A stretch of 64,000 nucleotides of DNA, taken from Candidatus Rokuibacteriota bacterium (GTDB lineage Bacteria > Methylomirabilota > Methylomirabilia > Rokubacteriales > CSP1-6). The stretch lies in assembly GCA_016188005.1 (NCBI GenBank), contig JACPIQ010000116.1, forward strand, positions 1-64,000, given 5' to 3'. Positions 13,431-30,613 of this stretch are shown here, one piece after another (the stretch's first letter is position 1; every line of letters starts with the position of its first letter). The notes beneath the pieces are model-generated. The model did no database searches, was not told the origin of the DNA, and saw only the letters and a program-made list of their open reading frames with translations. Position numbers and translations under genes: made by a program.

Positions 13431-14438
13431 CTACATTCCCACCTTGTCCCGGTGGCAGTTTCGACAGAGGCCGAGCCAACTGACGGCGCCGAAGTTCCAC
13501 AGCTTCGGCGCCGGCGCGGCATGGGGGTTGTGACAGCTGGCGCAGGACAGCTCCCGCTTCGGCCGGTTTGGATCGGGCCGGCCGCGGGTGGGATGCCCCT
13601 GGCCACTTGGCCCCCAGTTGATCACGTGGCGCCCGTCCGCCTTCTCGAAGTGACAGGTCGTGCAGAGGTTCCAGGCAGCCTTCTTGAGAAAGAACTGGTT
13701 GTCCGTGCCGTGCGGGTTGTGGCAGATCGTGCACCGGCCGGTGGAGGTGGGCCCGTGCTGGTAGCGGCTGCCGTAGAAGCGCTCCTTCTGCTCGTCGTGG
13801 CAGGAGAAGCAGAGCGGCATGACGGGGTCCGGGGTCGCGTACCGCTGAGGCGACGCAGTCGGGTCATGGCATTTCGTGCAGGCCCACAGCGCCGCCGGGC
13901 CGTGCACTTCCTTGGCCTTCGTCAAGCGGGCGTGGCACGAGTAACAGGTGGACTGGTCGGGGCTGGCGGGCCCGGTGTCACCGGGCACCGCCTGGGTGCG
14001 GTGACACTCGTGGCACATCGCCTCGTTCCGCGCCTGGTGAAACGGCACGCGCCTGAAGCCCTTCGGCGGCTCCGAGGCCGAGAGGATCGCGGCAGAGTAA
14101 TAGACTGCGCGAGCCTCGCGCACGGCCGGCTTGCCTGGAGGGCTGGATTCCACCTCGACCACGTTCTGGCCGGCAGCGAGCTGGGCGCTCCAGTGCAGGA
14201 CACCGCCCCCGGCCGGGCGCGGCTGGTGGGCCGCGGGGCCGAGGTCGGTCCCGTTGAGCCGCGCCCGTACGGCGGAAGGCGCCACTCCCCCGTCGATCCC
14301 CACGATCACGTGGATGTTCCCACCCCCCGACACGACCGAGTCCGCCGCCGGGGCGTGCACGCGGACCCCCTGGCCGGCGGCGGCCGGAGCCCAGGCCACG
14401 CTGAGCACGATCACGAGCCCGGGAATCGAGCGCCTCAT
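13431..14438 (-). CDS. Exported octahaem cytochrome c (doubled CxxCH type)
   Basis: 335 aa with a signal peptide (LVIVLSVAWAPAAAGQG). The first ~110 residues form a beta-rich, Ig-like segment (VRVHAPAADSVVSGGGNIHV). Eight CxxCH motifs follow: CHECH, CYSCH, CTKCH, CFSCH, CTICH, CTTCH, CASCH and CRNCH, with frequent CHDP/CHNPH context typical of the doubled CxxCH family. Expected in the periplasm or outer surface as part of an electron chain. The start overlaps the preceding thioredoxin-fold gene (ATGA, 14435-14438), so it is part of the long minus-strand operon. Confidence 0.9.
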   Translation of the reverse strand: MRRSIPGLVIVLSVAWAPAAAGQGVRVHAPAADSVVSGGGNIHVIVGIDGGVAPSAVRARLNGTDLGPAAHQPRPAGGGVLHWSAQLAAGQNVVEVESSPPGKPAVREARAVYYSAAILSASEPPKGFRRVPFHQARNEAMCHECHRTQAVPGDTGPASPDQSTCYSCHARLTKAKEVHGPAALWACTKCHDPTASPQRYATPDPVMPLCFSCHDEQKERFYGSRYQHGPTSTGRCTICHNPHGTDNQFFLKKAAWNLCTTCHFEKADGRHVINWGPSGQGHPTRGRPDPNRPKRELSCASCHNPHAAPAPKLWNFGAVSWLGLCRNCHRDKVGM

Positions 14439-15406
14439 TTCCTTCCTTGGAGCAGTTTCAAGAACGCCCACCGATACCGGGAGACGGCGCGGGCGGCATC
14501 GCCGCGCGCCTCGTACGCGCGTCCGAGCTCGTAGTAGCCACGGACAGGCTCCGGGTTGAGCATCACCGCCTCTTCGAGCAGGCGGATGCCCTCGTCGACC
14601 TGGCCGAGCCGGATACGCGCGATGCCGACGCCGACGCGCGCGCCCGGCGAGGTCGGGTTCTTCGCGAGCACGAACTCGAACTCCCGCAGCGCCTGAGCCG
14701 CTTCGTTCGTGTCGAGGCGGGCGTAGCCGAGCCCGAGGTGGGCCTGGGTGAGGTCTGGCTGGAGCGCCAGGGCCCTCGCCAGCTCGCGCGCCGCTTCCTC
14801 GTACCGCCGCTCCGACGCGAGCGCCGTGCCTTGCCTGTACGCGGCCTGCGCCGCCTCGGCGTCTCGCCCGTGCACCTCGCCGACGCTGACCAGGCGTGCC
14901 GTCACGTCTGCATCGGAGATCTCGCCCAGCGCCCGAAGGGTGTAGGCCTCGACGAGCCGGCGGTAGTTGCTGTTGCGGCTCGGCACATACGCCTTCAGAA
15001 CTCCTCGAGCGTCGACCACCGCAGTGCTGGGAAACACGATCACCCCGAACGCGTCAGACGCCTGCCGGTTCCTGTCCGTCGCCGCATCGAGGGGCGGTCG
15101 CGGCACGCGCCCGGCGCCGGATCCGGCCTCCGCGAGGGCGACGACCGCCACCCCCTTCGCGGAGAGCGCCGCCGCGAGCGCTTCGAGATCGGCCAGCGCT
15201 TCCTCCGAGAACACCTGCCCGGGCCGCCAGAACAGAAGGACCATCGGGCGCCCTGGCGCTGGCACCGCGACGCCCCGGCCGCCGGCGCCGTCGAGCGCGA
15301 GCGCGGGGACAGGGCTGTCCACGGGGACGTTCCGGAAGCCGAGCGCCGGACCCGCCAGGCCCAGCGTGGCCAGCACCGCGATCAGGAACGCGCGCAGGTG
15401 TCTCAT
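14435..15406 (-). CDS. Exported thioredoxin-fold (TlpA/AhpC-like) protein with TPR tail, no CxxC
   Basis: 323 aa. Signal peptide (LRAFLIAVLATLGLAGPALG), then an AhpC/TlpA-like fold: VPVDSPVPALALDGAGG, PMVLLFWRPGQVFSEEALAD and VFPSTAVVDARG. The position of the redox CxxC holds RPGQVFS, so no thiol-disulphide activity is expected. Residues from about 185 onwards are TPR repeats (ALALQPDLTQAHLGLGYARL, AVMLNPEPVRGYYELGRAYE). It may be a scaffold or assembly factor for the multihaem proteins encoded on either side. A second protein of the same design lies two genes upstream. Confidence 0.75.
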   Translation of the reverse strand: MRHLRAFLIAVLATLGLAGPALGFRNVPVDSPVPALALDGAGGRGVAVPAPGRPMVLLFWRPGQVFSEEALADLEALAAALSAKGVAVVALAEAGSGAGRVPRPPLDAATDRNRQASDAFGVIVFPSTAVVDARGVLKAYVPSRNSNYRRLVEAYTLRALGEISDADVTARLVSVGEVHGRDAEAAQAAYRQGTALASERRYEEAARELARALALQPDLTQAHLGLGYARLDTNEAAQALREFEFVLAKNPTSPGARVGVGIARIRLGQVDEGIRLLEEAVMLNPEPVRGYYELGRAYEARGDAARAVSRYRWAFLKLLQGRK

Positions 15407-15418: not shown

Positions 15419-16468
15419 CTAGTAGATGATGACGAGCTTGACGAGCCGGTCACGCGCCGCGACGTCGGCAGAATCGTAGACGACGAGGATCCCCAGCTCG
15501 GAGAACGATTCGGCCATGAGGTCGACCGGCAGATAGTGGAGCTTGCCGTCGGCCTTCGTTCCCGCCCCGGCCGCCGCGCGACCCGTCATGCGCAGGAACT
15601 CTCCGTACGTGAGCAGCCGCCCGGAGCCGAACACCGCGCGAACATCGCGGTCGAGCGTCCCCCACACCGGAAAGACGAAGATGGACTCGATGGGGCCGTC
15701 CGGCGAGGCGTTGACCGCGATGGACTCTGTCCGCAGCGGTGACGGCACGGCGTCGCCACGGAAGAGGAATGCGTCCGCAGTCCGCTGCAGGGCAGTGCCG
15801 AGGCGCTCGGTGGCGTCGACGAGGGTGCTCTGGCCCACCTTGAGCCCGAGCCACTCGTGAGCCTTGACCGGCTTCGCCTGGGCCCCGGCGCTCGCCACGG
15901 CCGTCGCGTCCGGCCGCCGGCCCGCGCCGTCGCGGACTCTGGCGAACTCCCGCTTCACGGTGGCCAGATGGTCGTCTGGGCTCTCGCGCAACACCTCCGC
16001 GACCCGGGGCAGCACTGCCGTGCCACCCTGCTGCAAGAGCGCCAGCGCCGCGAGACGCCGGACGAAGGGATCGGGGTCGGCGAGCATGGAGCTCAGCGCC
16101 TCCATCGCCTCGCTGCCCCCGATCTCGCCGAGCGCATCGGCGACAAGCCGCTTGCCCCACCGGTACGCCTCCTTTCGTCGCAGGTACTGCACCAGCGGCG
16201 GCACCGCCCGGCGGTCTCTCAGCTCGCCGAGCGCCTCGATGGCGACCCATCGAACATCACGCTTCTCGTCGCGGAGGGCGCCGAGAAGCGCCTCGAGGAC
16301 CTTCGGGTCCCGCGAGTGCCCCAGCTCGGCCACCGCCGCCATGCGCGTCGCCGTGTCGCGCGTGGTGCCGAGCGTCCGCAGCGCGGCGGCCACGTCGACC
16401 GCTGGTGCCTGCGCCAGGGCCGGGCCGGCAAGGAGCCACAGGAACCCCGCCAGGAGAGCGCGTCTCAT
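15419..16468 (-). CDS. Exported HEAT-repeat protein
   Basis: 349 aa with a signal peptide ending GPALAQA. Residues about 30-170 contain HEAT/PBS-lyase-type helical repeats (AALRTLGTTRDTATRMAAVA, ALRDEKRDVRWVAIEALGEL, LADPDPFVRRLAALALLQQG). The C-terminal part has no recognisable domain but includes a segment starting HEWLGLKVGQSTLVDATERL, reminiscent of small lipoprotein folds. Probably a periplasmic protein-protein interaction scaffold. It sits between the two thioredoxin-fold/TPR genes in the operon (gap 4 nt upstream, 12 nt downstream). Confidence 0.7.
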   Translation of the reverse strand: MRRALLAGFLWLLAGPALAQAPAVDVAAALRTLGTTRDTATRMAAVAELGHSRDPKVLEALLGALRDEKRDVRWVAIEALGELRDRRAVPPLVQYLRRKEAYRWGKRLVADALGEIGGSEAMEALSSMLADPDPFVRRLAALALLQQGGTAVLPRVAEVLRESPDDHLATVKREFARVRDGAGRRPDATAVASAGAQAKPVKAHEWLGLKVGQSTLVDATERLGTALQRTADAFLFRGDAVPSPLRTESIAVNASPDGPIESIFVFPVWGTLDRDVRAVFGSGRLLTYGEFLRMTGRAAAGAGTKADGKLHYLPVDLMAESFSELGILVVYDSADVAARDRLVKLVIIY

Positions 16469-16472: not shown

Positions 16473-17666
16473 TCACCTCCCGTAGGAGAGCGGGAACAGC
16501 TCCCGCCGCGTCTGCCACAGGAGCTCGACGCCCTTTCGGTAATGGGCCATCGCTTCCGGCTTCATCCCCCGCTCGTCATACGCCTGTCCCGCCGTCAGGT
16601 AGAGGCGCCACTCGAGGGGATTGAGCTTGATGGCGGCGTCCAGCTCCTGCCGGCCCCGCGCGACGTCGCCGCTCCTCAGCAGGAGCACCCCGAGCTGGGC
16701 CCGCGCCGGCGCGTACGCGGGGCTGGCCGCCACGGCTTTCTGGAGGAGCTGCCGCGCCGCGTCGGTCTCCTTCCGCGCCGCGCGGAGCGCGGCCAGCTCC
16801 GTCAGCGCCGCCGGGCTCGCCGGATCGATCTTGAGCGCCTCGCCGAGCGTCCCCTCGGCCTCGCGCAGGAACCCCTCGCGCTCCTCCGGCGTCAGCCGCA
16901 GCGTCACGACGGACTCCCCGTTGAACTGGATCGCCTCGAAGGCGACGGCGCGCTCGCGATAGGTTTGTCCGAGGAGGACGCGCGGCAGCGCAAAACCGGG
17001 GTCCAGCTCGATCGCCTTCTTCAAGTTGCCGTCCACCTGATCGACCAGCCCGCGGGCGAGCATCGCCCGCGCCAGATTGAAGTACCGCACGGCCCGGGGA
17101 TTGGGCTGCTTCCCCTCCGCGACCGCCCGCTTGGCCACCGCCCGTCCCGCCACGGTCGCCTCCACCAGCTCGAAGAACTCCTCCCGCCCGGCGATCGGAT
17201 ACGCCGCGAGATCGGCGAGGATCGTTCCGTCACCACGCATCAGCACGGTCGACGGCACCGCGACGACGCCGTAGCTGTGGAACACCGTGAGGCCGCGGTC
17301 GAGGAGCAGGGGAAACGTCACCCCGATCTTCTGGGCGAGGGCGCGGGCCTTCGCCAGCTCCTCGGGCGTGCTGGCCGGGCTCTCGACGTTGACGCCGAGG
17401 ATCACGAGGGCCGGCTCCGGCGACCGCGCGTGGAGCTTCTGCAGGCGAGCGAGGACCTCCGGCGACTTGTCGCTCCAGCTCGACCAGAAGACGAGGACGA
17501 TGGCACGAGCGCTGGCGAAATCGTGAAGGGCGACGGCCTTGCCCTCGAAGCTTTCCAGCGAGAAGTCCGGCGCCTTCATGCCGGGCTGGAGCGCCTCCAG
17601 GGCAGCCGCCGGCGCCGCCGCGGCCAGAGTCAGCACGACGAGTATGCCGAGTGCGCGTCTCAACAT
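16473..17666 (-). CDS. Exported thioredoxin-fold protein with TPR repeats, no CxxC
   Basis: 397 aa. Signal peptide (LGILVVLTLAAAAPAAALE), then an AhpC/TlpA-like domain: GMKAPDFSLESFEGKAVALH, IVLVFWSSWSDKSPEVLARL and VPSTVLMRGDG. The active-site CxxC is replaced by SSWSDKS, so it cannot act as an ordinary thiol reductase. TPR repeats fill the C-terminal half. Start ATG 17666 has AGAGGA 5 nt upstream; ATG 17672 is the alternative. It is the paralogue of the protein at 14435-15406. A chaperone-like or structural role in multihaem cytochrome biogenesis is an inference. Confidence 0.75.
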   Translation of the reverse strand: MLRRALGILVVLTLAAAAPAAALEALQPGMKAPDFSLESFEGKAVALHDFASARAIVLVFWSSWSDKSPEVLARLQKLHARSPEPALVILGVNVESPASTPEELAKARALAQKIGVTFPLLLDRGLTVFHSYGVVAVPSTVLMRGDGTILADLAAYPIAGREEFFELVEATVAGRAVAKRAVAEGKQPNPRAVRYFNLARAMLARGLVDQVDGNLKKAIELDPGFALPRVLLGQTYRERAVAFEAIQFNGESVVTLRLTPEEREGFLREAEGTLGEALKIDPASPAALTELAALRAARKETDAARQLLQKAVAASPAYAPARAQLGVLLLRSGDVARGRQELDAAIKLNPLEWRLYLTAGQAYDERGMKPEAMAHYRKGVELLWQTRRELFPLSYGR

Positions 17667-17675
17667 GGTCATCCT

Positions 17676-19172
17676 CTAGTCCGCCGTAAAGGTCCGGTAG
17701 TCGATCGGGTTCTGAACAGTTTGCTTGCGGTTGTAGCCCCGCGGCACGTGGCATCCGGGTGCGCACTTGCCGCCATTGGCGTACTTGACGTAATTCGTCT
17801 TCACTTCCCACCCGCCGAAGGGGACGCCCTCACGAATGTGCTTCGGGCGATGGGAGGCATGGGTCTCGTGGCAGGCGCGGCAGGTCCGCCCCTTGATCTG
17901 GTTGACGTGGCGGAAGTGGAGGCTCTCGCTGCCGTTCCGGAAGCCGGTCAGCGTGGTCGTGCTGCGCTCGAGGGCGAGGGTGGGCTCATGGCAGCCGAAG
18001 CAGAGTCCGTACTGCTCGCGGGCGAACGGCGCGTAGAACTCCTGCGGGTACGGCCGGCGCAGGATGCGGAAGTTGTCGGTGCCGTGGGGGTCGTGGCAGG
18101 CCGCGCAATCCTGCTGCCGGATGGGGCCATGCCAGTCCCTGTGCTCGCCGAGGAACGCTTTCATGTTCACGAGCATCTTGCCATCCGTCGCCTTCCGCTC
18201 GCGGTCGTGGCAGCGGAGGCAGAGCACCATCGGGGTGTCCTGGAGCTGCTTGGGGAAGTTCGTGAAGTGCGGGTCGTGGCAGTTGAGGCACCGGCGCTCG
18301 ATCTTCACGGCCTCATGATCCGTCCGGGCCGTCCCCACCTGGGTCTTCTTGTCCGGGTGGCAGCCGAAGCAGAGCTCGGGAACCGACCGCTGCACGCGGT
18401 AGGGGTTGGGCGAGGTGTGGGGGTCGTGGCAGTTCGAGCAGTCCAGCCGTGCCGGCACGTGCCCGAAGCGCTTGGGCGTGAACTCCGCGCGCTTCTCCGT
18501 GTGGCACGTGTAGCAGAGCTCGGGCCCCTGCTTGACGAGCCGGTACGGGTACGGAGAGGTGTGGGGGTCGTGGCAGGCAACGCACTGGCCCTCCGCCACC
18601 GGGCCGTGAACCTCCCGCTCGAGGGTCTTGTCGCGGTCGTGACACTGGTAGCAGAGCTGGCTCGGGGGGCTCTTCCGCAAGCGATACCGGTACGGCGACT
18701 GGTGCGGGTCGTGGCAGGCCCCGCAGAGGCCGAAACGCACGGGCCCGTGCACGACCTTCTGCGAGTCCATGCGCTGCTCGTGGCACATGTAGCAGAGGTC
18801 CCGCTCCGCCCGCGCCATTCGGAAGGCGTGCTTCTCACCGTCGTACGCCGTCTTCTCGTCCTTCGGCGTGTGGCACTTGGTGCACTCCCCGGCCGCCACC
18901 GGGCCGTGAACGTACCGGGCCTGGCCCATCTGGCTGTGACATGCCCCGGTCACGCACGACGGCTTGGCCGCGCGTTGCGCGACCGGGGCCGGCGCGGCGG
19001 AGGTGGGCCTGGCAGGGACCGGCGCCCCGGGGGCCGGCTTGGCGGGCGCCGTCGGCGCCTGCGGCGCCGGCGCGCTCGGCGGCGCGGCCTTGGGCTGGGC
19101 GTGGGCGGCCGCGGGCAATGCCATGAGTGACGCCGCGAGCCCGCCGAGCAGGACGACGACGCGCACGATCAT
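17676..19172 (-). CDS. Large exported multihaem cytochrome c, 13 CxxCH plus two atypical haem sites
   Basis: 498 aa. Signal peptide ending AAAHAQ, an Ala/Pro-rich linker to about residue 70, then closely spaced haem sites: 13 canonical CxxCH (from CTKCH to CRACH) in HDPHxSPxPYR-like repeats. At the N-terminal end CVTGACH has the CX4CH form, and near the C terminus CAPGCH has CX3CH spacing. Both atypical motifs are conserved in the sister protein at 20518-21942, so they are probably used, giving up to 15 haems. Likely a periplasmic or outer-surface electron carrier. The GTG/ATG start overlaps the preceding cytochrome gene stop (ATGA at 19169-19172). Confidence 0.9.
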   Translation of the reverse strand: MIVRVVVLLGGLAASLMALPAAAHAQPKAAPPSAPAPQAPTAPAKPAPGAPVPARPTSAAPAPVAQRAAKPSCVTGACHSQMGQARYVHGPVAAGECTKCHTPKDEKTAYDGEKHAFRMARAERDLCYMCHEQRMDSQKVVHGPVRFGLCGACHDPHQSPYRYRLRKSPPSQLCYQCHDRDKTLEREVHGPVAEGQCVACHDPHTSPYPYRLVKQGPELCYTCHTEKRAEFTPKRFGHVPARLDCSNCHDPHTSPNPYRVQRSVPELCFGCHPDKKTQVGTARTDHEAVKIERRCLNCHDPHFTNFPKQLQDTPMVLCLRCHDRERKATDGKMLVNMKAFLGEHRDWHGPIRQQDCAACHDPHGTDNFRILRRPYPQEFYAPFAREQYGLCFGCHEPTLALERSTTTLTGFRNGSESLHFRHVNQIKGRTCRACHETHASHRPKHIREGVPFGGWEVKTNYVKYANGGKCAPGCHVPRGYNRKQTVQNPIDYRTFTAD

Positions 19173-20503
19173 GGCAAGCGCTCCCGGTGGATGAGGTAGG
19201 CGGTGACCACGCGCGCCTCTTCCTCCGTCAACTTGAGGTTCGGCATCCGGGTGTCGAGATAGTGCGAGGGATTGAGCACGAAGCGGTAGACCCAGGCGGG
19301 GTTCAGGCGCCGGCCGGCGAGCGTCAGGTCCGGACCGATACCGCCGGGTCTCGAGCCGATCCGGTGGCAGTTATCGCAGAACTTCTCCGAGAAGAGCCGC
19401 TCCCCCTCCGGCGCGAGCTTCGGACTGATCGCTGCGGCGGGCAGCGGCTTCAGGGTCTCGTCCTTGAGTCGCGCCATGATGTAGTCGGTCAGCGTCGCGA
19501 CCCCGCCGTCGGTGAGGCGGAAGTCGGGCATGCGGGCGTCCGAGCCCATGATGGCGTACTCCGGCTTGATCTGTACGGGGCGGCGCAGGAACCCTTCGAG
19601 CCACTCTCGCGTGACGCGGCTTCCCTGGAAGCCGAGCGGCGGACCCACTCGCTTGCCCTCCGGGAAGCCAGCGATCCGGTGGCAGCCGACGCAGTTGAGG
19701 CGGACGAGGAGGCTGCGGCCCATTGCCGCGTTTGCCTCCCTGTGCTCGTTCTTGGCCGCAGCAAAGCCCGGCTGGGGCGCCCTCTCCCTGCGCGAGGTCA
19801 GGTAGTCTCGCAACGCCAGGATCTGGGCTGTCTCGTCGCCACCCAGGATGTCGTCCGGCCCGGACTTGTCGTCGGCAAAGAACGAGGGCATCTTCGTGTT
19901 CGGGACGATCTTCGACGGGTCCCGGAGCCACCGCACGATCCAGTCGGGATCCAGCCGGTCCGGCACGCGCTCGAGGTTGGGGCCCCATTCCTCCGGCTTG
20001 CCGGCCGGCTTGCGATCGCCGTCGAAGTGGCAGCTGAGGCAGTCCAGGTAGTCCTTGCTCATGAGCTTCAGCGCGGCCTCGCGGGCGGACGCGCTGAGGG
20101 TCCCCCGGTGGCGGTGCGCCGGCGGCAGGGGGGAAGCCGAGCGGTCCTTCAAGCTCGCGAGCCCCTCGGTCAGCGCCACGGCTTCCTCGTCAGTCAGCCT
20201 GAAGTTCGGCATGCGGGCCCGGATCGCGGGACGGATCGTCTGGGGCGACTTGAGGAACGCGAACAACCAGTCCGGCCTGACACGGTCGCCCTCGGCGGTG
20301 AGGAGCGGGGCCTCCTGGCGGACCTGCGTGGTGTGGCCCGGGATGTCATGGCACACGGGACACCCGAGTCGCTCGATGAGGGCGCGCCCCGTCTCCTGCG
20401 CCTCGACGGGAGCGTTCCATGGCAACGCGAGGACGGCGACGATGACGGCCAGCCCCGCGAGGAGCAGGCTCAGGAACGGCGTCAGCCTCGGCCGCCACCT
20501 CAC
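19169..20503 (-). CDS. Exported tetrahaem cytochrome c
   Basis: 444 aa. N-terminal signal/anchor (LTPFLSLLLAGLAVIVAVLA), then four class I-like cytochrome c units with CPVCH, CLSCH, CVGCH and CDNCH. Each is followed by a repeated MPNFRLTDEEA-like sequence (MPNFRLTDEEAVALTE, MPDFRLTDGGVATLTD, MPNLKLTEEEARVVTA), where the Met is the likely distal haem ligand. GTG 20503 is chosen: it has GAGGGG about 9 nt upstream and yields a good signal. The frame upstream overlaps the preceding gene. It lies between the two ~15-haem genes, so it may link them to the inner-membrane chain. Confidence 0.85.
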   Translation of the reverse strand: MRWRPRLTPFLSLLLAGLAVIVAVLALPWNAPVEAQETGRALIERLGCPVCHDIPGHTTQVRQEAPLLTAEGDRVRPDWLFAFLKSPQTIRPAIRARMPNFRLTDEEAVALTEGLASLKDRSASPLPPAHRHRGTLSASAREAALKLMSKDYLDCLSCHFDGDRKPAGKPEEWGPNLERVPDRLDPDWIVRWLRDPSKIVPNTKMPSFFADDKSGPDDILGGDETAQILALRDYLTSRRERAPQPGFAAAKNEHREANAAMGRSLLVRLNCVGCHRIAGFPEGKRVGPPLGFQGSRVTREWLEGFLRRPVQIKPEYAIMGSDARMPDFRLTDGGVATLTDYIMARLKDETLKPLPAAAISPKLAPEGERLFSEKFCDNCHRIGSRPGGIGPDLTLAGRRLNPAWVYRFVLNPSHYLDTRMPNLKLTEEEARVVTAYLIHRERLP

Positions 20504-20517: not shown

Positions 20518-21942
20518 TCACTTGTTCGCCACCGCGGTCACCCGGTCGTAGCCGCGCGACACGTGGCACCCGGGCGTGCAACGGCCGCCGGTGTCGGTCT
20601 TCTGGTAGTTCGTCGGAACCTCCCAGCGGCCGAAGGACACGGACTCGCGGATCTGCTTGGGCCGCTTCGAGGCGTGCGTCTCGTGGCACGCGCGGCACGT
20701 GCGCCCCTTGTCCGGCCGGTTGACATGGACGAAGTGGAGGTTCTTCTCCCCGTTGCGGAAGTTGGTGAGCTTCACGGTCGAGGCCTCGAGGGCGAGAGTG
20801 GGCTCGTGGCAACCGAAGCAGAGGGCGTACTGCTCACTGGAGAACGGCGCATAGAACTGCCGCGGGTAGGCGCGGCGGAGAATACGGAAGTTGTCGGAGC
20901 CGTGCGGGTTGTGGCACGCAGGGCAGTCGCCCTGGCGGATGGGACCGTGGATCACGGGGTTGTCGGCCAGCCAGGCCTTCATGTTCATGATCTTGCCGGT
21001 TGGCGTTTCGAGCTCCTTGTCATGACAGCTCAGGCAGAGCTGGGCGGCCACCGCGCGCAGCTGCTTCGGCTGGTCGGCCGTGTGCGGGTCGTGGCAGTTC
21101 AGGCACTTCTTCTCGATCTTGTAGGCATCGTGCTGCGTGCGCGCTCCGGCGACATGCTTGCCCTGGGCCTGATGGCACGAGAAACAGAGCTCGGGGACCG
21201 GCTTGCGCGTGCGCGCCGGGTTGTCCGAGGTGTGGGGATCGTGGCAGCCGTTGCAGTTCTCGCGCGCCGGCTTGTGGCTGAACTTCCGCGTCGCGAACTC
21301 CTGCTTGCGCTCCTCGTGGCAGCCGAGGCAGAGCGTGTTGCCCTGAGCCGTGAGCCTCACCTTGTCCTTGCCCTGGTGCGGGTCGTGGCAGGCCGTGCAC
21401 TCGCCCAGGGCGACGGGACCGTGCACCTCCCTCGACGTCGTCTTGTCGTCCTTGTGGCACTTGAAGCAGAGCTTGGAAACCGGCGTTTCCTTGAGGCGAA
21501 AGCGATTCGGGGACTGATGAGGGTCGTGGCAGAACGAGCACTGCCCCCACTGGACCGGCCCGTGGACCACGGGCAGCGTGTTCTTCCGCTCGTGGCACGT
21601 GTAGCAGAGGTCGGCGCCATGGGCCACCAGCTCGAAGTCGCCCTCCGAATCCTTCGCTTTGGACGGGTGCGCCACGTTGGGCTTGGGGGTGTGACAGGCC
21701 TTGCACGCGCCAACGACCACCGGGCCGTGCACATACCGGTCCACCCCCATCTTGGCGTGACAGCCGCCGGTCGTGCACGAGGACCCGGCCGGCGGCGCAC
21801 CCTTGGCGGGCGGACCGGGCGTGGGTGCTGCGGTGGCCTGGGCCGGCTTGGTCGAGCCACCGCGGGGCTGGGCAGAGGCCGCCAGCGCCAGGGCGAGCGC
21901 CAGCACCGAGCAGGCGCCCACTGCGACCCAGCGGCCGATCAC
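20518..21942 (-). CDS. Large exported multihaem cytochrome c, sister of the protein at 17676-19172
   Basis: 474 aa, first gene of the long minus-strand operon. Signal peptide (LALALAASAQ), Pro/Ala-rich linker, then 13 CxxCH motifs (CKACH to CRACH) and the same two unusual ones as its sister: CTTGGCH (CX4CH) first and CTPGCH (CX3CH) last. Repeats of the CHDPHQSPNRFRL and CFGCHEPTLALE type match the other protein almost unit by unit, so the pair arose by duplication. GTG 21942 has GGGGCGAGG just upstream. A candidate -24/-12 promoter (22026-22011) precedes it. Confidence 0.9.
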   Translation of the reverse strand: MIGRWVAVGACSVLALALALAASAQPRGGSTKPAQATAAPTPGPPAKGAPPAGSSCTTGGCHAKMGVDRYVHGPVVVGACKACHTPKPNVAHPSKAKDSEGDFELVAHGADLCYTCHERKNTLPVVHGPVQWGQCSFCHDPHQSPNRFRLKETPVSKLCFKCHKDDKTTSREVHGPVALGECTACHDPHQGKDKVRLTAQGNTLCLGCHEERKQEFATRKFSHKPARENCNGCHDPHTSDNPARTRKPVPELCFSCHQAQGKHVAGARTQHDAYKIEKKCLNCHDPHTADQPKQLRAVAAQLCLSCHDKELETPTGKIMNMKAWLADNPVIHGPIRQGDCPACHNPHGSDNFRILRRAYPRQFYAPFSSEQYALCFGCHEPTLALEASTVKLTNFRNGEKNLHFVHVNRPDKGRTCRACHETHASKRPKQIRESVSFGRWEVPTNYQKTDTGGRCTPGCHVSRGYDRVTAVANK

Positions 21943-22010
21943 AGCCTCGCCCCGACATCATCAAGTCCATGCCGCTGTCTTGCGCTCACACCTGCCTCCC
22001 AGGGATCACC

Positions 22011-22026
22011 AGCAACGGCTATGCCG
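22011..22026 (-). promoter_or_regulatory. Candidate sigma-54 (-24/-12) promoter of the multihaem operon
   Basis: On the minus strand the sequence CGGCATAGCCGTTGCT has GG and GC exactly 10 nt apart and matches the TGGCACG-N4-TTGCW consensus at GGCA and TTGCT. Transcription would begin near 22000, giving a leader of about 58 nt before GTG 21942. A palindrome (22099-22112) lies 73 nt upstream, a normal distance for an activator site. Confidence 0.45.
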
Positions 22027-22098
22027 ATCCCCGGGCCCCAGGTGGCTTGATCTTCGGGCACTTACCCGGCTGGCAGCCGGCGGTAAACTCACTGTGAG

Positions 22099-22112
22099 GG
22101 GGAAGCTTCCCC
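22099..22112. promoter_or_regulatory. Palindrome GGGGAAGCTTCCCC, candidate activator site
   Basis: Perfect 14-bp palindrome between two divergent transcription units. Related GGGGAA-TTCCCC elements occur at 39425, 42991 and 43293. Next to it a second inverted repeat, TGGGTG-AAAA-CACCCA (22118-22133), could be a half-overlapping operator. Placement 73 and 86 nt from the flanking candidate -24/-12 elements fits an enhancer for an NtrC-type regulator. Confidence 0.4.
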
Positions 22113-22198
22113 AATAGTGGGTGAAAACACCCAGTCGGTGCTCTCACGCGTCATCCCGAAAGCGTCCCACCCCCCGAGGGAGCCGGGCTTGGCCGTTC

Positions 22199-22212
22199 GG
22201 CATCCCGCTTGC
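22199..22212 (+). promoter_or_regulatory. Candidate -24/-12 element (or weak sigma-70 promoter) before 22228
   Basis: CGGCATCCCGCTTGCT (22198-22213) has GG and GC 10 nt apart and shares CGGCAT-N5-TTGCT with the divergent promoter at 22011-22026. If used, RNA would start only about 4 nt before ATG 22228. A sigma-70 reading (TTGGCC 22189-22194, TACTCT 22213-22218) also predicts an almost leaderless transcript. Either way the gene has no clear ribosome-binding site. Confidence 0.3.
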
Positions 22213-22227
22213 TACTCTCCTCGGGAC

Positions 22228-22821
22228 ATGAGGCCTCTCATCACCGCGGTACTGGCTGTAGCCCTCGTCCTCCCGCACCCCGCGTCAGCGGTATGGTCGG
22301 GCCTGAACGAACAGCAGGTTCAGGAGGCGCTCTCCCTCGCCACGGCCGCGTACGAGCGCTGGCGCAAGGAGGGAGGGGCCATCGACGACGTGGACCGCGA
22401 GTACCTGGTCAGTCTGGGGCCCGACACCGGCAGCGCGATCCTCTTCACCGAGTTCTCGACTCTGACGCTGGAGCATCGTCGGTGGCTCGCCATCGGACGG
22501 AAGATCGAACCCAAGGAGATCGAGCTGATTGCGGAGCGGTTCCGGAACCAGTTCAAGTTCTCCGTGACCCTCGTGGGCGAGAGCCGGGACTTCCTGCGCC
22601 AGTACCAGGTGCGGCTCCTCCAGTCCGGGGTGAGCAGGGAGCCGCTCAAGGCGGAGGTGTTCCGCGGGGTGCGTCAGGGAACGTCGAATCGCTGGGTCGC
22701 CCTCGGCGAGTACACCTTCTCGGTCGAGAAGCTGGACCTCGCCGGCGCCTTGAGTCTGGTGTGCCAGACCGCGGGGGGCAAGGAAATCCGCTTCGAGTTC
22801 GATCTCTCCCGGCTGCGATAG
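22228..22821 (+). CDS. Exported protein of unknown function
   Basis: 197 aa. Clear signal peptide (LITAVLAVALVLPHPASA) followed by a soluble domain with a helical first part (LNEQQVQEALSLATAAYERW) and a beta-rich second part (YTFSVEKLDLAGALSLVCQT). No known motif or haem site. The start at ATG 22228 is set by the signal peptide; the frame is open back to 22117. It is transcribed divergently from the multihaem operon across a shared regulatory region, which hints at a link with it, and is convergent with the membrane/TPR gene downstream. Confidence 0.65.
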   Translation: MRPLITAVLAVALVLPHPASAVWSGLNEQQVQEALSLATAAYERWRKEGGAIDDVDREYLVSLGPDTGSAILFTEFSTLTLEHRRWLAIGRKIEPKEIELIAERFRNQFKFSVTLVGESRDFLRQYQVRLLQSGVSREPLKAEVFRGVRQGTSNRWVALGEYTFSVEKLDLAGALSLVCQTAGGKEIRFEFDLSRLR

Positions 22822-22845: not shown

Positions 22846-25230
22846 TCAGGACCGCGGCGCCCCGTCCAGCGCCTGCCGGGCTCTCCTGGCCCAGTAGCCT
22901 CGCGGATCCAACCGCAGGTACTCGGCGAAGTGGGCCCGCGCCCGGGCCGCCTGGCCCCGCCGCTCGTGGATCAGCGCGAGACCGTAGTGGGCGTTGGCGA
23001 AGGCCGGGTCCGCCTCGAGGGCACGCTGCTGCTGGACCATGGCCTCGTCGAGCCGCCCGAGGTCGAAGTACACGTAGCCCAGGTTGCTGAGCGCGGCCGG
23101 ACTCCGCGGGCTCAGCTGAAGGGACAGGCCGAAGGCCGCGATCGCCTCGTGGTGCCGGCCTTCCCGGTAAAGCTGAACGCCACGGCGGAAATGCTCCTCG
23201 GCCTTGACCCGGGTGAGTACCCGCGGAAAGGCCGCCTCGAGGCGCTCCGCACGCTCGGCGCGCCCGGTGCGGCGATAGGCAGCGAGGAGGACCGGGTACG
23301 CCTCCAGCAGACTTGGGCTTCGTTCGAGCGCCCGCTCCAGGCTGTGAATCGCCCGCCGGTCGTCGCCGGCCTTGGCAGCGAGAATGCCGATGTTGTAGAG
23401 CACATCGGCCGTCTCGTCGAGGGCGGCGGCCTTCGTGTAGTACTCGAGCGCACGGGCTGGCTGGGCCAGACGAGCATGGGCGAAGGCCAGCCCCTGGTAG
23501 ACGTTGGCGAGGTGGCTCCAGGGGCCCGGGAAGTCGCGCACCCGGCCCAGGACCTGGATGGCCTCGGCATGGCGGCCGCCGTCGTTGTAGAGGAAGCCCA
23601 GCAGCGCCAGTCCCATGGAGGAGCCGGTGTCGGCGACGTTGCGCTTCAGCTCGGCCTCGATCGCCGCCGGCGGCACGCCTGCCCGGAGCTGGCGCCGCAG
23701 GTGCAGGGCACCGTTGACCGGCCTGACATGTCGGTACTCGTCCCGCTGGGCCACAGCGGCCAGCGGCCCCGCGCGGTGCACGTAGACCAGGACCAGATCA
23801 TCCCAGTAGACGAGTGCCCAGGGAGCCGAGTTCCATCCCAGGTCCATGTCGGGAACATCGCTCCCCAGCCCGGAGGGCAAGACCGGATAGTCCACGAGGG
23901 CGATCTCGAACCCATAGGTTGACCGCAGCTTCTCGAGCCGCACCGGATTCTCCCGGACGACCATGGCCTCATCCAGCAGCCCGGCTGGCACGTGACCCCG
24001 GCCGTCCGTGAAGGGCGCAAGCCTCGGGAAGTCGCGCCAGGCGATGTAGCCGCCCCAGTGGAAGACGTTGAAGACTCGTCCGGAGGCGCCGACGCGCTCG
24101 AGGTAGCGGAGGGCGCCGTCGGGAATCATCACGGCGTTGATCCCGAAGCCGGGCTCCTTCAGAGAATCTCCCAGGGGCCCCGTCCGCGTCGCCCAGAGCC
24201 CGAGCACCGCCAGCCCGAGGCCCGCGGCTGCGACCGCCGCCGGGAGCGTGAGGCGACGGGCCCAGGCCTCCCCCAGACGCCCGATCAGCGCGCGAAGGTG
24301 GCGGGCCAGCACCGGCGCGCTCACCACCGCGAAGAGGAACATGAAGCGCCTGGCCGAGAAGGCGAGGTAGGCGAAGGGAAGGACCAGGAGCAGGGACACG
24401 ATGGACAGACGCTTGACGGTCAGGGCGAAGGCCAGCCCCAGGAGTGCCGCGATCACGAAGGGCGCGTTCTGCTGGCCGAAGCGCGGCGGCTGGAGCTCGC
24501 TGATCTCGTGGAGGAACCAGGGGGCTCCGGCGAGCCGGAACGGTGCCAGCAGCGGGTCGACTCCGTAGGGGTTCAGGAGAGAAACCAGGATGACAGCGGT
24601 GAAGACCGCGGCCACGACCCGGAGCTGACGGGGGGACGGCGTGCCCGGCAGCGCGAGGCCCCACCGGGCGCGCGCAACCGACTGCAGCGCCCCGCCGGCC
24701 AGGACGGCCACGAACGGCACGACGCCCACCACGATGCTCGGGTGCATGTTCACCCAGATGACCTGGAGCGCCGGCAGCGCGTACAGGTAGCGGCGTCCCT
24801 CGTAGAGATAGGCATCGAGCGCATAGACCGTGAAGGCCAGGAACACCATCAGTACGAGGTCCGGGCGCTCGACGAAACGGTGTCGGACGACGAGGAGCAT
24901 CGGGACCAGGACCACGCACGCGAGAGCCACGGCCAGGAGCTCGCGCCCGGGCGGATCGCGGGGGCAGAGGCAGCCCTTCAGCAGGATCCAGAAGGCCAGC
25001 GTGGCGACGGCCGCCTTGAGGAGGATCACCCCCGCGAGCCCGCCGGCGGCCTGGACGAGGTAGAGCAGGAGCCCGAAGAGCCACTCCGGGTTGTAGTACG
25101 GCAACGCGGCGCCTGGATAGCTGAAGGGCTCGGTGGCCGGGAAGCCCCGCTCCTGGACGATGGCCCGTCCCAGGGCCAGGTGCGTCCAGGCGTCGGTATC
25201 CTCGATCTTCACGACCCCGAGGACGAGCAC
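22846..25230 (-). CDS. Polytopic membrane protein with C-terminal TPR repeats
   Basis: About 794 aa. The first ~340 residues hold around ten hydrophobic helices with loops resembling membrane glycosyltransferases of the PMT/GT39-like superfamily (KIEDTDAWTHLALGRAIVQE, PEWLFGLLLYLVQ), though catalytic residues cannot be confirmed. A soluble middle part contains HWGGYIAWRD, and residues from about 550 form TPR repeats (LSLQLSPRSPAALSNLGYVY). It follows a dolichol-phosphate-mannose-synthase-like GT2 gene by a short overlap or gap, suggesting lipid-linked sugar transfer to exported proteins or glycans. The true start may be further upstream: the frame is open to 25268 and GGAGG lies there, but no ATG/GTG/TTG is present in that piece. 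Confidence 0.65.
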   Translation of the reverse strand: MLVLGVVKIEDTDAWTHLALGRAIVQERGFPATEPFSYPGAALPYYNPEWLFGLLLYLVQAAGGLAGVILLKAAVATLAFWILLKGCLCPRDPPGRELLAVALACVVLVPMLLVVRHRFVERPDLVLMVFLAFTVYALDAYLYEGRRYLYALPALQVIWVNMHPSIVVGVVPFVAVLAGGALQSVARARWGLALPGTPSPRQLRVVAAVFTAVILVSLLNPYGVDPLLAPFRLAGAPWFLHEISELQPPRFGQQNAPFVIAALLGLAFALTVKRLSIVSLLLVLPFAYLAFSARRFMFLFAVVSAPVLARHLRALIGRLGEAWARRLTLPAAVAAAGLGLAVLGLWATRTGPLGDSLKEPGFGINAVMIPDGALRYLERVGASGRVFNVFHWGGYIAWRDFPRLAPFTDGRGHVPAGLLDEAMVVRENPVRLEKLRSTYGFEIALVDYPVLPSGLGSDVPDMDLGWNSAPWALVYWDDLVLVYVHRAGPLAAVAQRDEYRHVRPVNGALHLRRQLRAGVPPAAIEAELKRNVADTGSSMGLALLGFLYNDGGRHAEAIQVLGRVRDFPGPWSHLANVYQGLAFAHARLAQPARALEYYTKAAALDETADVLYNIGILAAKAGDDRRAIHSLERALERSPSLLEAYPVLLAAYRRTGRAERAERLEAAFPRVLTRVKAEEHFRRGVQLYREGRHHEAIAAFGLSLQLSPRSPAALSNLGYVYFDLGRLDEAMVQQQRALEADPAFANAHYGLALIHERRGQAARARAHFAEYLRLDPRGYWARRARQALDGAPRS

Positions 25231-25267
25231 GCACGCCAGCAGCAGTCCGGTCAGGAGTCGCTCGATG

Positions 25268-25984
25268 TCAGGCCTCCGTGCGGTCGAATCCCTCGCGCCT
25301 CAGCGAGGTGAGCGAGACCGACAGCAGCATCTTGAAGGCGTAATAGACGGGCCGCAGGCCCGAGTGCATCGAGCGGCCGCCTCGCCTGCCGTACATGCGT
25401 ACGGGAACCTCCTGGATCCGGAAGCGGGAGCGCTGGAGCATGAGCAGCACGTCGGCGTCCGGATAGTCCGACGGGTAGCGGTCCGCCGCCAGGAAGCGCA
25501 CCACGTCACCGGAGAGCGCCTGGAACCCGGAGGTGACGTCAGTGAGCCGGGTGCCACCCAGCAGGAAGGCGAGCCGGGAGAAGAGCTGCATCCCGATGCG
25601 CCGGATGAGATCGGGACGATAGTCATCCTTGCCGAGGAACCGGGAGCCCAGGGCCACGTCCGCCCCTCCGCCGGCGATGGCCTCCACGAGGGCGGGGATA
25701 TCGGCCGGCTCGTGCTGGCCGTCGCCGTCGAGCTGCACCACGCAGTCGTGACCGTGGCGGAGGGCGTACTTGTACCCTGTCTGGAGCGCCACTCCGTAGC
25801 CCATGTTGAAGGGGAGCCGCACGACACGCGCCCCGGCCGCTCGGGCGATCGACGCAGTCCCATCCGTCGAGCCGTCGTCCACCACGACGACCGGAACCCC
25901 GGGAACCGCGGTCCGGATGGCGCCCACCACCCGCGCGATGGACGCGGCTTCGTTCAAGGCGGGGATGAGGACGATGGGGTTCAT
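25268..25984 (-). CDS. Glycosyltransferase family 2, dolichyl-phosphate mannose synthase type
   Basis: 238 aa. GT2 fold with PIVLIPALNEAASI, VVVVDDGSTDGT, QLDGDGQHEP (the DxD metal site) and TSGFQALS, which are the standard landmarks of DPM1/polyprenyl-phosphate sugar transferases. No C-terminal membrane domain. It would make polyprenyl-phosphate sugar on the cytoplasmic face, used by the membrane protein encoded next. ATG 25984 is chosen, with GAGGG 6 nt upstream; ATG 25990 is the alternative. Confidence 0.85.
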   Translation of the reverse strand: MNPIVLIPALNEAASIARVVGAIRTAVPGVPVVVVDDGSTDGTASIARAAGARVVRLPFNMGYGVALQTGYKYALRHGHDCVVQLDGDGQHEPADIPALVEAIAGGGADVALGSRFLGKDDYRPDLIRRIGMQLFSRLAFLLGGTRLTDVTSGFQALSGDVVRFLAADRYPSDYPDADVLLMLQRSRFRIQEVPVRMYGRRGGRSMHSGLRPVYYAFKMLLSVSLTSLRREGFDRTEA

Positions 25985-25990
25985 GACCAT

Positions 25991-26735
25991 CCCTCGCTCA
26001 TTCCGTGGGGCCTTTCACCCACTTCCTCCATGGTGGAACCATTATCGAGCCATTCTAGTGCATTCGGGGTGCCACCCCCCTCGGGGGGCCGGGGCCATCC
26101 CGGGAACGCCCGGGTGGGAGACGGCCGCCACAGAGAAGGCTGCGGGGAAGCCGCCGCGCAGCAGCGGGGTCGCGGCGACGTGGGAGGGAAGAGCCTCCCG
26201 GCGCCCCCGTGTCGTCGCCCGAGGGTCGCTGGCGCTGGCATCGGGAATGCTGCTCTCTACGAAACGGCGGCGGACCTGGGCGGAGGAGCGGGCGGCACAC
26301 TGCCGCCGGCTGCATGAGCGAGGGGGGTGGCGGAGGCCAACCGTCGCGAGGGACGAGAGCTTGCAGGAATGACGGAGACGCTCCGCGGAATCGTGGCTCC
26401 TGCACGATGCCGCAGCCAACGGCCTCGAACTCGCGGCTCCGTAAGGGACATCGCCACGGGTGGCGACTCAGCATGTTCCGCCCGGGGGGACCCACTGCCC
26501 CCGCCGGGCACATTATCTACGTATCTCTGTATCTCTGAGACGGCACACGAGAGAATGAGCACGACATGAGAGCCGCGAAGGCCCCACTCGAGCGCCGGAC
26601 GCCGACCAGTCAGAAGGGCCATGAGCGCCGCCGCGGAGCAGCCCGGCGTGCCACGATCCGCCCGTCCTCGCTCGGTCTCCCCTGCAGGCAGCGGCGTCTT
26701 CTTTCGCCTCCGCTGAGCTTGACGATCGGCCCTGC
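25991..26735. other. Long intergenic region with GC-rich inverted repeats
   Basis: No convincing gene is seen in these 745 nt, which separate divergently transcribed glycan genes. Strong short hairpins occur: CCCCCC-TC-GGGGGG (26075-26088), CCCGGG-AACG-CCCGGG (26099-26114) and CGCCAC-GG-GTGGCG (26452-26465). At 26521-26538 the octamer GTATCTCT is repeated in tandem. The region probably carries promoters for both directions; none is clear enough to place. Confidence 0.4.
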
Positions 26736-28007
26736 ATGAGCTGGACAGCCGACGCGCAGCGGTTCGTCCAGTCGTACGACACCGCGGCGGGACGGCAGGC
26801 CTTGCGCAACCTGGCGGGGTTGGGGTCATTCACCGCGATCTCCCAGGCGTGCGCATTCGGCGTCCTCCTGCTTCTCACGAACGGTCTCGGCCCGGAGGGC
26901 TTCGGGACGTATGTGTTCGGGACAAGCGTGCTGGCGTACCTGGTGGTCGTCGGCGGGGTCGGGCTGGGCAACGTCGTCGTCCGCGACCTGAACCTGCTAC
27001 CTGAGGACGCAGACAGGACGACGACGGCGTTCGTCGTTATCACCGTGGCCGGCGCCGCGATCGCTGGAGCAGCGGCGGCGGTCGTGGCAGCGCTCGCGCC
27101 CGTGTCCACCGCCGAAAGACATGTGCTGCTCATCGTTGCGATCGCGGCCGTACCGATGTGCCTGAACTTGAATCCCCTGTACGACTCCCACCATCGCCAG
27201 GCCTTGTCGGCGGCGTTGAGCATCCCTGGTGATGTGTTGATGCTGGGTGGGGTCGCGGGCCTCCATTACGCGGGGCTTCTCACGGCGCCGGGCGCCGCGC
27301 TGTTGCTGCTCGGAAAGCACGCGATCACGATGATCGCCCAGGCGGCTATCTACCACCGGAAGGTTCGACCGTTCCGCTGGGCATGGGATCCGAGATGGGC
27401 GCGCTCCCTGCTCCGTTCGGGCCGATTCATGTTGACTGCCGGCCTGGTCTACATGGTTCCCTTGCAGGGCGGAGTGATCCTGGCGAGGCTACTCCGCGGA
27501 GAGCGGGACGCTGGTCTGTACGGGGTTGCGTTCCAGATCGCCTCGGCGTACCTGATCGCCGGAACGCTGGTAACCCGGATCGTTCAGCCCCACATCGCCG
27601 GACCGTATGGGCTGGATCGCCTCTTCGTGCGGAAGCTGATTCTGAGCATGGGGGGAACCCTCATCATGCTGTGGCTCGCGGGTGGGGGGGTCGCCTGGCT
27701 GCTGATCGATCGCCTCCTGGACCCCGCATACGCTCCGGCGTTCGGCCCGATGCTCGTGCTGCTCACGACCGCCACGGTCGCCATCGCGACGTGGGCCGTC
27801 AACCTGTATCTCTTGCGGTTGCACCGCGAGCGGACGTTGCAGGCGGTGTACGTAGGTGCCGCGGCGGTGTATGTCGCCCTTGCCCTCCTGTCCGCGGGCA
27901 GCCCGCTGGCTCTCTTCGCAGCGGCCTCCCTGGCGGTGTTCACGATGGTGGCTGCCGTCGTGGTCCCGGCGGCTCGTCGCGCGGCCCACATGCCGGGAGG
28001 TTGTTGA
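26736..28007 (+). CDS. Oligosaccharide flippase-type membrane protein (Wzx/MATE-like)
   Basis: 423 aa with about 12 hydrophobic helices, starting GRQALRNLAGLGSFTAISQA, and a polysaccharide-synthesis (MVF/MOP superfamily) layout: LLLLTNGLGPEGFGTYVFGT, VVVRDLNLLPEDADRTTTAF. It would move lipid-linked oligosaccharides across the inner membrane. It heads a plus-strand group with a methyltransferase and glycosyltransferases. A truncated relative lies at 31624-32199 on the other strand. Confidence 0.8.
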   Translation: MSWTADAQRFVQSYDTAAGRQALRNLAGLGSFTAISQACAFGVLLLLTNGLGPEGFGTYVFGTSVLAYLVVVGGVGLGNVVVRDLNLLPEDADRTTTAFVVITVAGAAIAGAAAAVVAALAPVSTAERHVLLIVAIAAVPMCLNLNPLYDSHHRQALSAALSIPGDVLMLGGVAGLHYAGLLTAPGAALLLLGKHAITMIAQAAIYHRKVRPFRWAWDPRWARSLLRSGRFMLTAGLVYMVPLQGGVILARLLRGERDAGLYGVAFQIASAYLIAGTLVTRIVQPHIAGPYGLDRLFVRKLILSMGGTLIMLWLAGGGVAWLLIDRLLDPAYAPAFGPMLVLLTTATVAIATWAVNLYLLRLHRERTLQAVYVGAAAVYVALALLSAGSPLALFAAASLAVFTMVAAVVVPAARRAAHMPGGC

Positions 28008-28187
28008 ACAGTGTGGCGCGATCCTCGTCCCGTCACGAGCCCCTTGCGGAGATCGGCGGGCGCTCCGCACGCTCACATCGCGACCTGCCGGGTGGAGCCG
28101 ATTACCCCGGCGCCCTGCGGGAATGCGGGCATAGACACACAGGGATGAACGTGACTGACGCCCTGCGTTCTGGGGAAGGGGCAGACG

Positions 28188-28922
28188 ATGAGCCGGCTGC
28201 GACAGCGTCTCACTGAACAGTACGCCAGGCACTACCTCCGGCTCAACACGGCCTCCGAAGGGCCTCGGTTGCCGCGGCCTCAGTACCGCTTCTTTGACCG
28301 CACTTTCGCTCATGTAGTCAGAGCGCTGCCTCCGGCCAGCCGGGTGCTGGACCTCGGGTGTGGCACCGGGCAACTCCTCCAGTGGCTGGCGCACCAGTCG
28401 AATCTCGTGCCGATCGGCGTAGACACCTCGAGCGCGCAGGTGAGCATCGCGCGAGCGAAACTGGCCGGCATCGAGATCCATGCAGCCGACGGCCTCGGTT
28501 TCCTCCGGGAGCGTGCGGGGGCCTTTCACGCGATCTTCTGTGTCGATGTGCTCGAGCACATCCCGGGAGACGATGTCCTCCTCGAGTTGATCGAATTCGC
28601 CGTCGAGGCGCTCAAACCCGGCGGTGCTTTCGTGTGCCGGACACCCAATGCGGCAAATCTCTTTGCCTGCTACTCGCGCTACATGGATCTGACACACGAG
28701 CGCTGCTTCACCAGCAGCTCGATCATCCAGTTGCTCGAATCGGCCGGCCTGGAGCGATGTCGCGTCTTTCCCACGCGCCCGGGTACATTTCGAGGGCAGC
28801 TCGCGCTTTCCATCGAGCGCATCCTGCACCGAGTCCTGTTCGCCCTCACGGGGAGAAGTGGTGAAACCGGCTTCTCGATGAACCTCAACGCCCTCGGATA
28901 CAAGAAGAGCGACGACCGGTGA
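28188..28922 (+). CDS. Class I SAM-dependent methyltransferase
   Basis: 244 aa. Motif I is VLDLGCGTGQLL, motif II region VPIGVDTSSAQVSIARAK, and motif IV is FCVDVLEHIPGDD, followed by ALKPGGAFVCRTPNA. This is the usual Methyltransf_11/23 pattern found in glycan clusters, where such enzymes methylate sugars or terminate chains. The stop overlaps the next start (GTGA, 28919-28922). The 180-nt gap upstream holds no other gene. Confidence 0.85.
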   Translation: MSRLRQRLTEQYARHYLRLNTASEGPRLPRPQYRFFDRTFAHVVRALPPASRVLDLGCGTGQLLQWLAHQSNLVPIGVDTSSAQVSIARAKLAGIEIHAADGLGFLRERAGAFHAIFCVDVLEHIPGDDVLLELIEFAVEALKPGGAFVCRTPNAANLFACYSRYMDLTHERCFTSSSIIQLLESAGLERCRVFPTRPGTFRGQLALSIERILHRVLFALTGRSGETGFSMNLNALGYKKSDDR

Positions 28923-30115
28923 CGCGCGCCGAGCGCCCGCTCAGAATTCTCCACGTCGTCTACCACATGAACCCGGGTGGAATAGAGACGTGGCTCCTGC
29001 ACGTCCTTCGACATGTCGCCCGCGATCGATTCCGCATGGACTTCCTCGTGCACACGCCTGAGAAGAGCTGGTACGAGGACGAGATCCGCGCCCTCGGGGG
29101 GGGCGTGCTCCGCTGCGTGCGTCCGATCAAGCTCCCGCGGCACCTGTTGCAGTTCAGTCGGGTCTTGCGGGATTCCGGCCCCTACGACGTGGTGCACAGT
29201 CACGTCGGCTACACGGGCTACATCCTTCGACTGGCGCGCTACGCGGCCGTTCCGGTTCGCATAGCGCACTCGCACAGCGGTGCCGCGTACCTCCGACCGA
29301 GCCGCGCTCCACTCACGAATCTCTTCCTGAGGCTCACCAGCGCCTGGGTGCTGCGGGATGCTACGCTGGGCCTCGCGGCGAGTGACATCTCCGCGCGCGC
29401 CCTGTTCGGGGAGGACTGGCGGAAGGACCCCCGCTGGCGTGTCTTCTATTGCGGGGTGGATCTGGCACCCTTCGAATCGGCTTTCTCGCGCGCTGAAGTC
29501 CGCGGTGAGTTCGGCCTTGACCCCGACGCCTTCGTGATCGGCCACGTGGGGCGATTCTATCCGGTGAAAAATCACCGCTTTCTCATCGACGTCGTGGCGG
29601 AGGCCGCGAAGCGCGAGCCTTCGACGCGCCTCCTCCTCGTGGGTGACGGGCCACTTCGACCAGACATCGAGAGACGGATCGCCGCAGCCGGGCTCCACGG
29701 ACGCGTAGTCCTCGCGGGACTGCGTGGTGACGTCCCCCGCTTGATGCTGGGGGCCATGGACGCCTTTGTTCTCCCCTCGCTGTATGAGGGGCTGGCGCTT
29801 GCCCTTGTCGAGGCGCAAGCGGCCGGCCTTCCGTGTATCGCCGCGGAGTCGATACCACCAGAGGCCGACGTTTGTGCGCCGCTGGTCATGCGATTGCCGT
29901 TGCAGGCATCCGCCTCCCGATGGGCCGAGGTCATCCTTGCCACGCGCCAGGGCAGCAGGCCGCGGCCGCGTCAGGCACTGGAGGCGGTCCGCCGCAGCCC
30001 TTTCAATATCCGCGAGGGCGTCGAAGAACTCCAGAGACTGTACACGGGCGCAGTGCGCTCGGCGGCTTCCTCAAGCGAAACACCCAGGACTTATTCTGAC
30101 AATCGTGGCACCTGA
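28919..30115 (+). CDS. Glycosyltransferase family 4 (GT-B)
   Basis: 398 aa. N-terminal acceptor domain opens ILHVVYHMNPGGIETWLLHV, and the C-terminal nucleotide-sugar domain shows GHVGRFYPVKNHRFLIDVV, LLLVGDGPLRPDIE and LPSLYEGLALALVEAQAAGL, the EX7E-type region of GT4 retaining enzymes. It is co-translated with the methyltransferase. Sugar donor and acceptor are unknown. The last ~20 residues (SSSETPRTYSDNRGT) are hydrophilic and may be variable. It is followed by an IS remnant. Confidence 0.85.
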   Translation: MTRAERPLRILHVVYHMNPGGIETWLLHVLRHVARDRFRMDFLVHTPEKSWYEDEIRALGGGVLRCVRPIKLPRHLLQFSRVLRDSGPYDVVHSHVGYTGYILRLARYAAVPVRIAHSHSGAAYLRPSRAPLTNLFLRLTSAWVLRDATLGLAASDISARALFGEDWRKDPRWRVFYCGVDLAPFESAFSRAEVRGEFGLDPDAFVIGHVGRFYPVKNHRFLIDVVAEAAKREPSTRLLLVGDGPLRPDIERRIAAAGLHGRVVLAGLRGDVPRLMLGAMDAFVLPSLYEGLALALVEAQAAGLPCIAAESIPPEADVCAPLVMRLPLQASASRWAEVILATRQGSRPRPRQALEAVRRSPFNIREGVEELQRLYTGAVRSAASSSETPRTYSDNRGT

Positions 30116-30300: not shown

Positions 30301-30309
30301 CTGCTCGGG

Positions 30310-30612: not shown

Positions 30613-30613
30613 G

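Follow-up and report, generated by a model that had tools for sequence, protein, structure and literature searches.

Among the described systems that come closest to the locus reported here, the divergent operons of Desulfovibrio vulgaris comprising the ORP operons and their GAFTDA-type regulator DVU2106 (Fievet et al., 2011, cited in PMC4641369) share with it two divergently oriented operons under the joint control of sigma-54 and one cognate activator, as well as the GAFTDA loop of that activator. However, DVU2106 is a single-component regulator and the genes concerned are listed under cell division, whereas the system analyzed here is of the two-component type, is linked to cytochrome genes and has a box of its own. 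Another Desulfovibrio regulator, DVU3142, was predicted to be the sigma-54 activator of the ohc octahaem cytochrome operon (PMC4641369) and, similar to the present case, is a sigma-54 activator for a multihaem cytochrome electron-transfer operon encoded beside that operon, but it is single-component, acts on a one-way sigma-54 promoter and belongs to another phylum, and sharing of a box is not claimed. The PrsK/PrsR system, whose PEP-CTERM promoter box has been described in proteobacteria only (Haft et al., 2006, PMC1569441), likewise pairs a kinase with a sigma-54 response regulator and has a motif that precedes a -24/-12 element, and one box of the present genome also fronts a PEP-CTERM protein. 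However, the PrsR box (motif 1) ends in TTTACA, in contrast to the GGGGAA-NN-TTCCCC found here (PMC1569441). Finally, the RpoN regulon of Geobacter sulfurreducens resembles our system in linking sigma-54 with extracellular electron-transfer cytochromes and in its -24/-12 consensus, although the consulted passages of that paper mention neither a common activator box nor an orthologous regulator (PMC2725144). In summary, divergent sigma-54 operons with one activator are known, and no description of such a case in Rokubacteria or for the present gene set was found: our literature search returned nothing on sigma-54 gene control in Rokubacteria and no paper with the searched box sequences.

The features of the divergent control region and of the regulator operon, both of which lie in the 64 kb stretch of DNA analyzed here (the window), are listed in Table 1.

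Table 1. Features of the divergent control region, its flanking genes and the regulator operon in the window.
Feature	Position	Strand	Remark
8-haem cytochrome, left operon	13431-14471	minus	
Sensor gene, left operon	11582-13606	minus	PAS, HisKA
TPR protein, left operon	14435-15406	minus	
HEAT protein, left operon	15419-16468	minus	
Redoxin-TPR protein, left operon	16473-17672	minus	
Second 13-haem cytochrome, left operon	17676-19172	minus	
c-type cytochrome, left operon	19169-20500	minus	
13-haem cytochrome, first gene of left operon	20518-21942	minus	doubled CXXCH
-24/-12 element CGGCATAGCCGTTGCT	22026-22011	minus	toward multihaem operon; RNA start predicted ~22000
Perfect palindrome GGGGAAGCTTCCCC	22099-22112	strandless	proposed activator box
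GTGGGT flank	22117-22122	plus	same offset from palindrome as in regulator-operon boxes
-24/-12 element CGGCATCCCGCTTGCT	22198-22213	plus	toward exported protein; RNA start predicted ~22224
Exported protein, 197 aa	22228-22821	plus	predicted target of right promoter
NtrC-type response regulator	39495-40895	minus	proposed activator; receiver, AAA+ with GAFTDA, Fis-type HTH
Histidine kinase	40861-42126	minus	proposed partner; HisKA, HATPase_c
TPR protein	42123-42791	minus	first gene of regulator operon
-24/-12 element TGGCATCGGTCTGGCA	42867-42882	minus	regulator operon; 108 nt from operon's box
Perfect IHF-type site TAACAGCTTGATT	42912-42924	minus	between regulator-operon box and promoter
Box GGGGAATTTTCCCC-ACAG-GTGGG	42991-43004	minus	regulator operon
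Second box GGGGAAATTTCCCC, GGTGGG flank	43293-43306	minus	upstream of regulator operon

The preliminary description of this DNA had claimed two divergent sigma-54-type elements with a perfect palindrome between them, and both elements are indeed present at the places given, near-consensus and flanking the palindrome. Their GG/GC spacing is right as claimed, GG-N10-GC in the minus and plus elements alike, and they are the only exact matches in the window to the CGGCATN5TTGCT that they were said to have in common; only the distances to the palindrome need correction, since the actual gaps are 72 and 85 nt, each one less than the 73 and 86 nt originally stated. The textbook consensus for sigma-54 is TGGCACG-N4-TTGCW, and both elements are 3 positions off its TGGCACG part while keeping GG, GC, CA, TTGCT and the spacing. 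A pattern search of the whole genome (5.37 Mb), which encodes a single rpoN gene (E 4e-60), yielded 42 matches to YGGCAYN5TTGCT compared to 2 for the reversed-pattern control, an approximately 20-fold enrichment. A looser pattern with 3 mismatches to TGGCACGN4TTGCW was not enriched in the window (69 matches compared to 85 expected from shuffles), and a loose -24/-12 match alone is therefore meaningless. This result, together with the finding that perfect 14-bp palindromes as such are not rare (13 in the window), is what might be expected if the entire pattern had arisen by chance in a GC-rich genome; however, the enrichment of the strict motif and the recurrence of the box and its spacing at regulator operons in eight genomes make such an origin exceedingly improbable. 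Judged from its motifs, region 22011-22213 is a strong candidate for a two-way, activator-dependent control region.

The palindrome at 22099 represents one copy of the box GGGGAANNTTCCCC-N4-GTGRG and matches all 12 fixed positions of the pattern GGGGAA-NN-TTCCCC. The genome contains five exact copies of GGGGAANNTTCCCC, of which three lie inside the window (22099, 42991 and 43293) and the remaining two on contigs C69 and C130; a control pattern gave 0 exact matches. A good outward-reading -24/-12 element was found 72-139 nt off in four of these five sites. Activator sites of sigma-54 promoters are expected upstream, roughly at -80 to -200, and the predicted box is placed accordingly, 72 and 85 nt away from the elements here and 108 nt at the regulator operons. 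The box on contig C130 is part of another copy of the regulator-operon control region that has diverged in sequence and is followed by TPR and kinase genes, the latter interrupted by the contig end. Two stretches of the alignment of this copy (mean column identity, 86%) are unbroken blocks, namely the box including its flank and the -24/-12 element including the sequence around it. This copy may be a paralogue or may represent DNA of a related strain (assembly contamination estimate 4.67%). The box on C69 lies 139 nt from the -24/-12 element TGGCATTGTGCTTGCT, which fronts the PEP-CTERM protein. This box, located with its -24/-12 element in L124 8077-9193, is unlike the described PrsR motif.

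Both further boxes of the window are located upstream of the operon that, read from TGGCATCGGTCTGGCA, encodes a TPR protein (42123), a histidine kinase (40861) and an NtrC-type regulator (39495). The box at 43293 lies 288 nt beyond that at 42991, with only a weak -24/-12 match nearby. The regulator has receiver, sigma-54 interaction AAA+ and Fis-type HTH domains, with GESGTGKD as Walker A motif and the contact loop GAFTDA, not GAFTGA. GAFTDA is also present in every clade orthologue with a readable loop; it is listed among the loop variants that would stay active (PMC4641369), and the NorR variant G266D, which carries the same change, is active (PMC2941729). Recognition of the PEP-CTERM box by a PrsR was considered as an explanation and rejected, as the motif is different and the TIGR02915 (PrsR) score of the window regulator, 416.3, is below the curated cut-off of 502.6. 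The argument that an NtrC-type activator is encoded in the window, on which the preliminary description had relied, is weak on its own because the genome contains at least 21 NtrC-type matches at E <= 1e-100; it is the box that singles out the regulator at 39495-40895. On the other side of this gene, the segment 39360-39475, which separates it from a series of NHL-repeat, cytochrome and barrel-like genes, contains a possible further sigma-54 promoter on the minus strand (GGGAACACTCCTTGCA) and degenerate boxes at 39424 and 39461, and boxes with -24/-12 elements are located at the matching place in G020, G022 and G016. Pairs of boxes 21-22 nt apart were also seen just 3' of the regulator gene in three relatives, at L182 (7322-7356), L186 (10104-10139) and L187 (4639-4673), with cytochrome genes coming after the pairs in L182 and L186.

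Orthologues of the regulator with 74-87% identity were found in 9 other genomes of the phylum, two of which are Candidatus Rokubacteria GWC2_70_16 and GWA2_70_23. The box fronts the regulator-containing operon in seven of these nine genomes (G020, G016, G029, G002, G022, G078 and G001); no box was seen on the 7 kb contig of G077, and the contig of G036 carries only one-mismatch boxes, which lie 3' of the regulator gene. At the regulator-operon promoters the -24/-12 element follows 108-111 nt downstream of the box, and an alignment of nine such promoters, seven from relatives and two copies from the present genome, revealed that GGGGAAWWTTCCCC-ACAGGTGRG is conserved with small departures. When the extended box pattern was counted with at most one mismatch among 57 family genomes, 8 of the 9 regulator-encoding genomes contained it, compared to 3 of the 48 that lack the regulator (Fisher p = 8.5e-7). 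Mismatch-free copies of GGGGAANNTTCCCCN4GTGRG in these 57 genomes number seven, four in the present genome, including that at 22099, and three at the regulator operons of relatives. In the f9 regulators, which are more distant (55% identity), the recognition helix is different (ISRDALRNRMKKFGF vs LTRDELRYRVKKF), and the box is absent from the f9 loci taken. Moreover, no exact box was found in approximately 0.8 Mb of DNA flanking distant regulators (41-48% identity) from other phyla. The earlier suggestion of control by an NtrC-type activator is thus supported by the presence of the same box at that activator's own operon, here and in seven relatives, by the near-constant distance between box and -24/-12 element, and by the co-occurrence of box and activator across the family.

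The core of the 22099 box is GC, in contrast to the A/T core of the other sigma-54-linked exact boxes. Elsewhere, most exact boxes with a G or C core fall in Ffh coding sequence or in hairpin-like sequence and lack good -24/-12 elements; in genus g9, whose genomes lack the regulator, they are mostly Ffh coding sequence, judged by eye from the translation, and no strong -24/-12 element was present within 300 nt of G/C-core palindromes in regulator-less genomes. Since such copies exist without the regulator and without a strong -24/-12 element, the bare palindrome is not diagnostic. It is conceivable that the sigma-54 promoters and the box are real but that an activator represented by another of the at least 21 NtrC-type matches binds at 22099, where the palindrome, with a core unlike that of all other sigma-54-linked boxes, would be a mere lookalike. 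We consider this quite improbable, given that 12 of 12 fixed positions match and GTGGGT follows at the same offset, a flank match that is supporting rather than predictive because both groups were already known when the extended pattern was defined. Furthermore, the sensor gene of the left operon, in which no ATPase domain was found, has homologues (51-71% identity, in pieces) that relatives encode within their regulator operon, which ties the left operon to the regulator at 39495-40895.

Additional evidence comes from the arrangement of promoters around the box. Divergent -24/-12 elements surround the regulator-operon box in G016, G029, G002, G022 and G078, with gaps of 108/86, 108/76, 109/197, 108/75 and 109/166 nt, respectively, and the genes on the far side encode a small QrcA-related multihaem cytochrome and a QrcB-related molybdoprotein, which fall below curated cut-offs in G022, the one genome scanned. 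G020 has a box at a distance of 96 nt from an element fronting hemA, whose product, glutamyl-tRNA reductase, is above cut-off, and a further box 111 nt from an element fronting a series of ccmF, dsbE-like, TPR, kinase and regulator genes. Predicted divergent promoters around one box are the rule at the five related loci, in line with the proposal that the two promoters at 22011-22213 share a single site.

The intergenic region 22011-22213 itself was found in no other genome searched, and no IHF-type site was detected in it. The left genes, lying closely spaced on one strand, appear to form one operon; for its 13-haem gene P0002 an orthologue was present in none of 95 phylum genomes (E 1e-45), its own paralogue excepted, nor in the named genome collection. 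The exported protein on the right belongs to no Pfam or NCBIfam family, and its homologues in relatives (24-33% identity) have neither a box nor a convincing -24/-12 element in front. The absence of such a promoter from the homologues and the predicted rightward start, which leaves a leader of only ~4 nt before the ATG, could mean that the left promoter alone is functional and that the exported protein is read from elsewhere, in which case the plus element would be either a minor promoter or a match by chance. This is unlikely in our view, albeit less so than the other alternatives, as the two elements have equal scores and the plus element is correctly spaced, divergent use is the rule at the five related loci, and a search of 21500-22700 found no sigma-70-type promoter (nor an intrinsic terminator). 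Further to the right, the segment between the two cytochrome regions (22846-31633) contains glycosyltransferase-like, flippase-like and other polysaccharide-type genes, as judged from translations alone.

Taken together, the sequence comparisons make it likely that the regulator at 39495-40895 binds the 22099 box and activates transcription in both directions via sigma-54 RNA polymerase. We infer binding, phosphorylation, looping and activity at the 22099 site as follows: the kinase at 40861-42126 would phosphorylate the regulator, which would then bind the GGGGAA-NN-TTCCCC box and, through DNA looping, cause sigma-54 RNA polymerase to form open complexes at each of the two -24/-12 elements. 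As a consequence, the multihaem cytochrome operon including its sensor gene would be turned on to the left and the exported protein to the right, and the same regulator would use the 42991 and 43293 boxes to govern the operon that encodes it. The nature of the targets suggests redox state or electron-acceptor availability as the signal.

Rokubacteria, a common group in soil and groundwater, have no cultured members. Our results suggest, with somewhat more reserve, that they possess a clade-specific and previously undescribed two-component sigma-54 regulon marked by GGGGAANNTTCCCC-N4-GTGRG, in which one activator probably exerts joint control over haem synthesis (hemA), cytochrome c maturation (ccmF/dsbE-like), Qrc-like modules and multihaem cytochromes, and in which a single box shared by divergent promoters would be the standard layout. 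With a box that points to its cognate regulator, the co-controlled genes can be listed from sequence alone, and box and regulator together constitute a testable DNA-protein pair that is open to study in a laboratory host. Since the genes of this regulon make up electron-transfer apparatus, they would provide a handle on when Rokubacteria switch respiratory chains.
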